From assembly GCA_019636615.1 (NCBI GenBank), contig JAHBXF010000001.1, positions 1,364,001 through 1,428,000 on the forward strand: a stretch of 64,000 bases of DNA, given 5' to 3'. Positions 33,923 through 36,307 of the stretch are shown in pieces (within the stretch, counting starts at the first letter, position 1; each line of letters opens with the position of its first letter). The position numbers and the translations under genes were made by a program. Under the pieces are notes generated by a model. The model was not told the DNA's origin. It ran no database searches and saw only the letters and a program-made list of their open reading frames with translations. The stretch comes from Phycisphaeraceae bacterium. GTDB taxonomy: Bacteria; Planctomycetota; Phycisphaerae; Phycisphaerales; UBA1924.

Positions 33923-34600
33923 ATGCCCCCCAGAGGCCCATCCTCACCCGCCGGCACCCCGCGCGATGTCGTGAAGCGCGGCCCCGCCTATCCCCGCACG
34001 GTCGATGCGCTCATCGCGCAGTTCGCCTCGCTGCCGGGCATCGGCCGGCGCAGCGCCGAGCGATTGGCCTTCCATGTGCTTAAGTCTGACGGGCCCACGG
34101 CCGAGGCTTTGGCCAACGCCATTCTGGACGTGAAACGGCACGTGCGGCACTGCGAAGTCTGCTGGAACCTCTCTGATTCGTCGCTGTGCGACGTGTGCGC
34201 CGATGAACGGCGCGACCGGCGCACGGTGCTGGTGGTCGAGCAGCCGCGCGACCTGGTCGCGCTGGAACAGACCTCGATGTTCCGCGGCATCTACCACGTG
34301 CTCATGGGCAGGCTGAGTCCGCTCGATGGCATCGGCGCGGGCGATCTCACCGTGGCGGGCCTGGTGGAGCGCATCGACAACCCTGGCAAGAACGCCGGGG
34401 GCGAACCCGTGGCGGAAGTGATCCTGGGGCTGAACCCGACGATCGAGGGGGACGGCACCGCGATGTACTTATCGGACATACTAAAGGAGCGGCAGGTGAA
34501 AGTCACGCGGTTGGCACGTGGTTTGCCGACAGGGTCTCAACTGGAGTACGCCAACAAGGCCGTGCTCACGGATGCGATCCAGAGCCGGCAGACCTTCTGA
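33923..34600 (+). CDS. recR: Recombination protein RecR
   Basis: This 225-residue protein fits RecR, which with RecF and RecO loads RecA at gaps. A helix-hairpin-helix (LPGIGRRSAERLAFHVL) is followed by a four-cysteine zinc finger (CEVCWNLSDSSLCDVC) and a Toprim domain (VLVVEQPRDLVALEQT), then VTRLARGLPTGSQLEYA and a conserved C-terminus. The N-terminus is extended by about 20 residues relative to most RecR proteins. The last 50 codons contain a run of codons rare in this genome (TTA, ATA, CTA, TTG, GCA, CGT, GGT), coinciding with a sigma-54-type promoter for rpoN. rpoN follows 75 bp downstream. Confidence 0.97.
   Translation: MPPRGPSSPAGTPRDVVKRGPAYPRTVDALIAQFASLPGIGRRSAERLAFHVLKSDGPTAEALANAILDVKRHVRHCEVCWNLSDSSLCDVCADERRDRRTVLVVEQPRDLVALEQTSMFRGIYHVLMGRLSPLDGIGAGDLTVAGLVERIDNPGKNAGGEPVAEVILGLNPTIEGDGTAMYLSDILKERQVKVTRLARGLPTGSQLEYANKAVLTDAIQSRQTF
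34511..34527 (+). promoter_or_regulatory. Candidate sigma-54 (-24/-12) promoter for rpoN, inside recR
   Basis: TTGGCACG-N4-TTGC matches the RpoN-dependent consensus, with the GG and GC dinucleotides separated by exactly 10 bp. It ends about 150 bp before the rpoN ATG. It is written by the recR codons TTG-GCA-CGT-GGT-TTG-CCG, in a genome that otherwise uses GC-ending codons. Function is inferred. Confidence 0.55.
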
Positions 34601-34675: not shown

Positions 34676-36307
34676 ATGCGTTTCGAGACCGCACAACACA
34701 TCAAACTCGGCCAGCACATGAAACTGGCCCCGCGGATGATCCAGTCGATGGAGATTCTGCAGATGCCCCTTGTCGAACTCGAAGAACGCATCGAGCAGGA
34801 ACTCGAGAGCAACCCCACGCTGGAACAGGTCGACGGCTCGGCCGATGAACCAGCGGAGGCCGGCGAGCCATCCTTCGAGCCAGACTTCGACAGCCGCCCG
34901 CTCACCGTTGACGAGCGAGCCGGCGGCGACGAGTTTTCGCGCCTCGACCGCTACGAGGCCGACCACCCCGAAGCCGTCGAGAACGCCTACGACGGCGGCG
35001 ACGGTGTGGGCCGCGAGACCTTCGACCGCTTTGAATCTTCGTACACCGAGGGCCGCCCCGCCGCGGACGGCACCGACAGCAAGTTCGACGCCATGGCCGC
35101 CACGCCCGCGCGTGGCGCCTCGCTGGCCGATCAACTGCGCGGCCAGTGGGCCCTGACCGACGTTGACGACGCGCTTCGCGCGCCGGGTGAACTCATCATC
35201 TCGTTCCTCGATGACGACGGTTATTTGCGCACGCCGCTCGATGTGATCGCCGACCGCGCCGCGCTCTCGCACGCGGACGACGCGGGCGCACCCGCCGAAG
35301 GGCGAGAGTCCGGCCCGGTCTTCGCGGACAGGCCGACGGTGGAAACGCTGGAACGCGCGCTGCGCGCGGCCCAACTCTTCCTCGAGCCCCCGGGCGTCGC
35401 GGCCCGCACGCCCGCCGAGTGCATGCTGCTGCAACTCGACGCGATGGAGGACGACGCGGAGGACCTTGGCTGGCCGGCCATCACCTTCGAGCACGCGAGG
35501 CTGATCGTTGAGCACCACCTCGACGACATCACGCAGAACCGTCTGCCGCGCGTCGCGGAGAAGACGGGCCTGACGATGGAGCAGATCAAGGAGGCACTGG
35601 GCCTGCTCAAGCGATTGAGCCTCTCCCCCGGCCGGCGTCTTGTGGAAGAGCGGGCGAGGCCCGTTGTGCCCGACGCCATCGTGGAGTATGACCCCGAGCA
35701 AGACCGCTACGTGGCCTACCTCAACGACACGCGCCTGCCCAACCTGCGCATCAACCAGGAATATGCGCGCCTCGCCAAAGACCGCGCCATACAGAAGCGA
35801 GACCGCGAGTTCATCAAGACGAACCTGGGCAACGCGCAGTGGCTGCTCGACGCTGTGGGCCAGCGCCGCCAGACCCTGCTGCGCGTTGTCTCGGCAGTGG
35901 TCGAAGCCCAGCGTGACTTCTTTGATTACGGGCCGCAGGCGCTCAAGCCCCTGCCCATGACGGCGATCGCCGAGCAACTGGGCATCCATGTGGCGACGGT
36001 CAGCCGCGCTGTGGCCGAGAAGCACCTGGCCACGCCGCGCGGCATTGTGCCCTTACGCAAGTTCTTCTCCGGCGGTGTGCAGACCAAGCCCACCGACACC
36101 GGCGAAGCCAAGGAAGACTTGGCGTGGGAAGCGATCAAGGCCGCGCTGAGGGATGTGATCGAGGGGGAAGACAAGAAGTCACCGCTGAGCGACGAGGCGC
36201 TAGCAGAATCTCTGCGCGGGCGCGGCATCGACATCGCTCGGCGCACCGTCGCCAAGTACCGCGACCAGTTGGGCATTCAGCCCGCGCGCTTGCGGCGGAC
36301 GTATTGA
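34676..36307 (+). CDS. rpoN: RNA polymerase sigma-54 factor
   Basis: This 543-residue protein is sigma-54. Region I at the N-terminus is Gln/Leu-rich (KLAPRMIQSMEILQMPLVEL) and binds activator and core; an acidic, variable region II spans about residues 50-150; the core-binding domain follows; the helix-turn-helix region is MTAIAEQLGIHVATVSRAV; and the C-terminal RpoN box is ARRTVAKYRDQLGI, which recognises the -24 element. Length is slightly above the usual 480-500 because of the acidic insert. It starts at 34676, 75 bp after recR. A sigma-54-like promoter inside recR suggests autoregulation. No enhancer-binding activator gene is in the window. Confidence 0.97.
   Translation: MRFETAQHIKLGQHMKLAPRMIQSMEILQMPLVELEERIEQELESNPTLEQVDGSADEPAEAGEPSFEPDFDSRPLTVDERAGGDEFSRLDRYEADHPEAVENAYDGGDGVGRETFDRFESSYTEGRPAADGTDSKFDAMAATPARGASLADQLRGQWALTDVDDALRAPGELIISFLDDDGYLRTPLDVIADRAALSHADDAGAPAEGRESGPVFADRPTVETLERALRAAQLFLEPPGVAARTPAECMLLQLDAMEDDAEDLGWPAITFEHARLIVEHHLDDITQNRLPRVAEKTGLTMEQIKEALGLLKRLSLSPGRRLVEERARPVVPDAIVEYDPEQDRYVAYLNDTRLPNLRINQEYARLAKDRAIQKRDREFIKTNLGNAQWLLDAVGQRRQTLLRVVSAVVEAQRDFFDYGPQALKPLPMTAIAEQLGIHVATVSRAVAEKHLATPRGIVPLRKFFSGGVQTKPTDTGEAKEDLAWEAIKAALRDVIEGEDKKSPLSDEALAESLRGRGIDIARRTVAKYRDQLGIQPARLRRTY

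Follow-up and report, generated by a model that had tools for sequence, protein, structure and literature searches.

The last third of recR in a Phycisphaeraceae bacterium (genome G000, 3.84 Mb in 2 contigs) carries a sequence that matches a sigma-54 promoter and points toward the next gene, rpoN, which encodes sigma-54 itself. Is this match a by-product of the RecR protein or a DNA signal kept by selection, and, if it is a signal, what would it do to rpoN? The window, meaning the whole stretch of 64,000 nucleotides (64 kb) of this genome that was analyzed, contains the features collected in Table 1.

Table 1. Features of the recR–rpoN locus in window coordinates
Feature	Position	Strand	Basis
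recR, recombination protein RecR; its 3' end carries the site	33923..34600	+	Pfam RecR_HhH, RecR_ZnF, Toprim_4
Conserved upstream stretch TACTTATCGGAC (codons Y-L-S-D)	34466..34477	+	codon and DNA alignments; 4/4 genomes of the genus
Candidate sigma-54 -24/-12 element TTGGCACG-TGGT-TTGC	34511..34526	+	exact core match; synonymous conservation
Predicted transcription start	34538	+	predicted, 12 nt past the C of the -12 element
Predicted 5' leader of rpoN mRNA, 138 nt, overlapping the last recR codons	34538..34675	+	prediction
rpoN (sigma-54), presumed target	34676..36307	+	Pfam Sigma54_AID, CBD, DBD

Sigma-54 promoters have the consensus TGGCACG-N4-TTGC, and transcription starts about 12 nt past the GC of the -12 element, a geometry that was used to place the start in Table 1. 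The criterion applied here was a GG and a GC 10 bp apart in TGGCAC(G)-N4-TTGC. As an earlier note on this DNA had claimed, a consensus sigma-54 promoter sequence overlaps the end of recR: TTGGCACGTGGTTTGC at 34511-34526 of the plus strand contains an exact match to the core at 34512-34526, is read in the recR frame as CGG TTG GCA CGT GGT TTG CCG (RLARGLP) and has its GG and GC 10 bp apart, and the distance of 149 bp from the site to the rpoN ATG was confirmed as well. The recR site is the only exact match to TGGCACG-N4-TTGC in the 64 kb window, and core matches with up to two mismatches are not enriched there (23 found vs 35.6 expected).

Codon usage was derived from 33 gene models (15,370 codons) that were built for this analysis from the window and do not include recR, because overlapping reading frames outscored it. 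TTA (0.011), ATA (0.028), CTA (0.010), TTG (0.068), GCA (0.058), GGT (0.091) and CGT (0.095) are all used at less than 0.1 in these models. The 20-codon stretch that begins with TAC at 34466 and closes with the second TTG (last base 34525) scores 15.48 for rarity, compared with a mean of 8.19 (sd 1.38) for simulated codings of the same stretch. None of 20,000 resampled codings is as extreme by window usage, in agreement with the claim of a run of rare codons at the end of recR. The top five 21-codon rarity windows within recR start at 34463-34478, with z from 5.1 to 5.7.

Synonymous conservation of the site in two genera

Relatives provided 93 loci with a recR end, which gave 82 distinct ones after 11 duplicates had been merged; L099, L105, L108 and L110, where the search for the motif gave no result, had been set aside before this count. 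Two groups, whose membership is independent of the site, are central to the comparison: genus A, the window's own genus with four genomes, and clade B, a second genus with eight genomes (loci L123-L130 represent the genomes of L017, L047, L050-L052, L058, L063 and L065). RecR identity among the genus A genomes is only about 70%, and their mean pairwise codon identity is 0.551 vs 0.433 expected without ancestry. Free variation of the synonymous codons in relatives had been named beforehand as the result that would speak against a signal. Instead, the core bases are invariant in 4/4 genus A and 8/8 clade B genomes, a pattern search having recovered the recR site in every genome of the latter genus, while most other synonymous sites have diverged in both genera. 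The first base of the first Leu codon and the third base of the Gly codon are T in all 12 genomes, whereas the third base of the Arg codon, which falls in the spacer, varies in both genera (T/C or G/T), as do the codons flanking the site. A fixed core with a variable spacer is the pattern expected of a protein–DNA contact site and would not be expected of a peptide or of codon rarity.

In genus A, windows over the site rank first of 101 recR/rpoN windows in synonymous identity above expectation. Retention of rare codons (usage below 0.1, same-amino-acid positions) gives a similar picture: with recR and rpoN of the window as the reference, 14 of 15 are kept in the five site codons vs 16 of 111 elsewhere in the two genes, for which the Fisher p of 1.4e-9 is indicative only since the cells share ancestry. 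The counts are 14/15 vs 15/109 with L049 as the reference and 5/6 vs 8/46 with L040, and L042 has no site codon below 0.1 and keeps 3/3 when the threshold is 0.15. The same codons vary in the 66 tabulated genomes without a perfect core, indicating that the signal is specific to certain lineages and not forced by the protein. The promoter bases are thus conserved beyond what the protein needs, and the proposal of the earlier note that selection acts on a DNA signal at the recR site is well supported by these alignments.

Sigma-54 in these genomes and the sign of regulation

When RLARGLP is spelled TTG GCA CGN GGT TTG CC, a perfect and correctly spaced -24/-12 element is formed inside recR. The usual GC-rich spelling, CTG GCG CGC GGG CTG CC, already has GG and GC at the correct distance, so that the peptide may be regarded as pre-adapted and a few synonymous changes would suffice to complete or break the core. 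Selection would have kept the promoter spelling in genus A and also, as a separate case, in one or more further genera of Phycisphaerales. We infer that sigma-54 RNA polymerase binds the site, is opened there by an AAA+ activator, starts transcription at about 34538 and proceeds over a leader some 138 nt long into rpoN as its target. Sigma-54 would in this way control its own gene, most simply by positive feedback. The site is oriented toward and adjacent to rpoN, this adjacency is seen in both clades, the conservation is centered on the promoter and activators are encoded in the genome; an autoregulatory promoter would therefore be the simplest and most economical reading of the site, and we put the probability that it is a sigma-54 promoter giving rpoN autoregulation at roughly 0.6.

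Besides sigma-54, G000 encodes AAA+ activators of sigma-54, namely five strong PF00158 proteins, four of which have a Fis-type HTH and one of which is RtcR. Exact cores outnumber those of a reversed-pattern control in G000 (9 v 2), G063 (6 v 3) and G051 (6 v 3) and do not in G061 (3 v 4) and G062 (5 v 11). Since the excess is found only in some genomes, the core alone is weak evidence, and it is the codon-level conservation that carries the argument. The nine exact cores of G000 are found at recR, at three flagellar positions (a flagellin gene, a second flagellin-like gene and the inside of a fliK-like gene before flgD), before hsp20, before an M90 peptidase gene and about 200 nt before rpoB, and at two positions left unassigned. 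Exact cores of relatives precede dnaK, hsp20, a groEL-like gene, a band-7 gene and others. The perfect cores 5' of chaperone and flagellar genes suggest that sigma-54 is in use in these genomes. The core upstream of flgD (L116, G000 C2:1056732-1056746, minus strand) also lies within codons, those for the peptide SELARELL of the fliK-like coding region. Sigma-54-like sites are found about 200 nt before rpoB in the genus mates G000 (L120) and G063 (L182).

The chaperone promoters carry a further element. Around 40 exact-core loci, TGCCA-N3-TGGCA with at most one mismatch occurs 8 times just upstream (1.14/kb) vs 4 times far away (0.04/kb), and the TGCCA/TGGCA inverted repeat is concentrated upstream only when its spacer is 3. 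A search of 16 genomes for a half-site plus promoter yielded 20 matches vs 9 for the reversed control; 16 of the matches have the full repeat, 14 of them before dnaK, groEL or hsp20 and 2 before a DUF1508 gene. Across the order, TGCCR-N3-TGGCA plus promoter gave 24 matches in 23 of 121 genomes vs 1 for the control, and these precede groEL (14), groES-groEL (1), dnaK (6), hsp20 (2) and another gene (1). Pfam confirmed one each of groEL, dnaK, hsp20 and groES, and the names of the remaining genes are putative, given by sequence resemblance. In relatives (L164-L207), the repeat starts 104-130 bp before the TGG of a TGGCAY-N5-TTGC promoter, and the cases in G000 are at C2:763785-763926 (groEL) and C2:1254727-1254858 (hsp20). 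Among the nine chaperone loci found through the core pattern alone, whose gene names are partly putative, seven carry the repeat. These sequence patterns point to an apparent order-wide sigma-54 heat-shock/chaperone regulon with an enhancer of its own, and TGCCR-N3-TGGCA is probably the enhancer of one activator.

A sigma-54 promoter would be expected to have its activator site about 80-150 bp upstream. The chaperone repeat was not found with 0-1 mismatch at 17 recR-rpoN loci between -320 and +260 around the site, nor was another upstream enhancer conserved in both lineages found there. A match with two mismatches, TGCCAACAAGGCG, lies 37 nt past the TGG in 8/8 clade B genomes and in L080; it is mostly dictated by the codons for Tyr-Ala-Asn-Lys-Ala and was not relied on as an enhancer. 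Given that these 17 loci have no enhancer of the chaperone type, three alternatives were considered, namely that another activator works there, that activation needs no enhancer at a set position, or that a closed complex is repressive. The last of these would be negative autoregulation, in which sigma-54 polymerase stays bound in a closed, inactive complex that stops transcription reading through from the recR promoter or masks another promoter, so that a high level of sigma-54 would lower rpoN expression. The lack of an enhancer that most chaperone loci possess would fit such repression, as would the intact C at -12 and the T before TTGC in 12/12 genomes of the two main clades, and the accessible text of PMC4551910 reports repression by sigma-54 holoenzyme at C-12 sites in E. 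coli. However, the E. coli cases described there are mainly ones of promoter competition, and a roadblock to elongating polymerase is not among them. In addition, a roadblock would be indifferent to orientation, whereas the orientation and distance of the recR site fit a promoter, and other activators are present in the genome. Negative autoregulation is considered unlikely.

Flanking sequence, codon choice and occurrence over the tree

In clade B, conservation extends beyond the site. The sequence AGCCAATTGGAGTATGCCAACAAGGCGGTTTTGGCCGATGCCATA directly 3' of it is identical at the DNA level in 8/8 genomes, and in the codon test, which covers 7 of the 8 genomes because L050 has a truncated rpoN and was left out, 15 consecutive recR codons after the site are identical. 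The next-longest such run in recR and rpoN is 4, and a single codon is used in 107 of 505 same-amino-acid columns. By the usual sigma-54 geometry, this block would span about -3 to +42 of the predicted transcript and so cover its predicted start. L062 differs from the block by 3 bases and all other genomes by at least 8. It is conceivable that the promoter drives rpoN but that the main object of selection is a leader element made of the first ~45 transcribed nt of clade B, which could be an operator, a downstream enhancer, an RNA element or a small upstream ORF. The invariant run is what such an element would leave, and the block also holds a weak TGCCA-N3-AGGCG repeat and, in another frame, a small ORF for the peptide MPTRRFWPMP. 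Against this, the block is not conserved as a block in the window's own genus, the folding of the bare 45-nt RNA is unremarkable (z -0.21; -0.02 and -2.31 for two longer variants), and the front half of the block has no further copies, occurring once in each of the 4 genomes searched. The GGAG ahead of the ORF stands only 1 nt from its ATG. The ORF was rejected as a candidate in its own right: its DNA is invariant, which makes selection on peptide and on DNA inseparable, its start spacing is poor and its start codon is lost in L062. A leader element as the main selected object appears rather improbable.

Genus A has a conserved stretch on the other side of the site. Located 33 bp before the -24 element, TACTTATC(G/A)GAC is kept as DNA in 4/4 genomes except for the third base of the Ser codon, and it includes the very rare codon TTA. 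The suggestion that the rare codons just before the site belong to the conserved signal is thus borne out for TTA, which the genus conserves in TAC TTA TCN GAC, and not for ATA and CTA, which are not conserved. The TACTTATC stretch does not recur at the genus's other sigma-54 promoters, and among the 8-mers shared upstream of sigma-54 promoters, GATAAGTA, the reverse of TACTTATC, occurs only at the four rpoN loci of the genus.

The perfect core is present in 15 of the 82 distinct recR ends, those of genus A (4), clade B (8), L062 and the pair L037/L080, in which it is spelled CTGGCACGCGGATTGC. The other 67 (66 in the codon table and L109) lack it and most of them have rpoN close by, indicating that rpoN can in general be expressed without the core. 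On a RecR+RpoN tree of 81 rows, built by a quick method with L109 left out, perfect cores stand at four places and require a minimum of 4 changes (gains or losses), and there is weak rejection (p-AU 0.032) of a tree that unites in one clade the 13 genomes with the TTG-type spelling, which are those of genus A and clade B together with L062. The sequence TTGGCACGNGGNTTGCC occurs in 7 of 392 genomes of a phylum sample and within recR only in the window's own copy. In most relatives recR and rpoN are adjacent, with gaps of 28-76 nt in the four genus A and 39-79 nt in the eight clade B genomes; L037 has the core, yet its rpoN is 989 bp away. Two relatives have a good candidate site elsewhere upstream of rpoN, L055 at -112 and L036 at -86. 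L040 (G063) contains a second, imperfect copy, TTGGCACGGGGTTTGA (TTGGCACG-GGGT-TTGA), in recR codons 27 bp upstream of the first. The recR 3' ends of L030 and L070 (G037) have an unusual C-poor, G-rich spelling, TTAAAAGGGTTGGGGAATCAGGGGGGAGAAGGGGTTGGGGTGAGT, just before RLARGLP.

This distribution bears on the idea that the match is a by-product of the protein. The peptide RLARGLP hardly varies, being found in nearly all 82 recR ends, and common codons for Leu, Ala and Gly give TGGC...TGC, so the match could be due partly to chance; typical GC-rich spellings are 2-3 bases off the core and in many relatives are the best-scoring site 5' of rpoN. However, a perfect core needs rare codons and has a probability of only about 0.002 given RLARGLP and the codon usage of the window. 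As the earlier note had pointed out, the motif could take the usual GC-ending codons, and the 66 non-core genomes (L109 not counted) do mostly use CTG GCG/GCC CGN GGN CTG. Since the core has been kept in two clades amid largely diverged synonymous sites and with a variable spacer base, the by-product explanation is largely refuted by codon-level conservation and is highly unlikely. Selection for codon rarity itself, whether to delay ribosomes as they approach the end of recR or to couple its translation to that of rpoN, is hardly plausible. No other part of recR in the window, and no other part of recR/rpoN in either clade, is spelled with rarer codons, but specific codons are kept in 12/12 genomes (Ala as GCA and never the equally rare GCT, Leu as TTG and never TTA or CTA), and the window's neighboring rare codons ATA and CTA are not kept.

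The autoregulatory promoter may also be part of a wider picture, which is put forward tentatively and at somewhat less than even odds. The RLARGLP codons would be a switch set by synonymous changes, one that in Phycisphaerales has repeatedly produced an autoregulatory promoter for rpoN, and one genus would have added a 45-nt control element in recR, a downstream enhancer, operator or leader element conserved base by base. If so, one short stretch would serve as the end of a protein, a promoter and a regulatory element.

Comparison with known systems

The locus is a clear example from nature of synonymous sites constrained by a probable signal for transcription instead of by the protein, and close relatives without that signal serve as controls. 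Because synonymous recoding would leave RecR unchanged, it also offers a direct way to test whether rpoN regulates itself in Planctomycetota, and feedback on rpoN would make physiological sense for the apparent order-wide chaperone regulon.

Autoregulation of rpoN through sigma-54 promoters has been predicted for Bacilli, Clostridia, Planctomycetia and others (PMC12316311), and the recR site resembles these predictions in placing a sigma-54 promoter sequence ahead of rpoN, Planctomycetota included. The accessible text of that paper names Planctomycetia and not Phycisphaerae in this context and does not mention a codon-embedded site, and the word recR is absent from its main text. Sigma-54 control of chaperones in Planctomycetota is predicted there too, with no mention of the TGCCR-N3-TGGCA repeat in its accessible passages on chaperones. 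The negative form of autoregulation finds its parallel in PMC4551910, where sigma-54 occupies -24/-12 sites without productive transcription; the repression described in the text available is mainly by competition with overlapping sigma-70 promoters, which sets it apart from the recR site as described here. The open-access literature yielded no description of a promoter in recR codons, of its separate lineages or of the clade B block.

The closest counterparts are the conserved intragenic sigma-54 promoters of E. coli in nagB (for nagE), rlmD (for relA) and yqeC (for yqeB), as far as they are described in the accessible text of PMC4591121. Like these, the recR site lies in the sense direction inside an upstream gene, would drive the next gene through a leader that overlaps the host gene, and is conserved across species. 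It differs from them (PMC4591121) in that its presumed target is rpoN itself, that its predicted leader is about 138 nt long instead of 360-760 nt, that it is known from synonymous conservation alone and that more than one lineage carries it in the codons of one and the same RecR peptide. Sense intragenic sigma-54 promoters, predicted rpoN autoregulation and sigma-54 repression are thus already known, and what is new is the embedding in RecR codons, its occurrence in lineages that are separate, and the block that clade B conserves.
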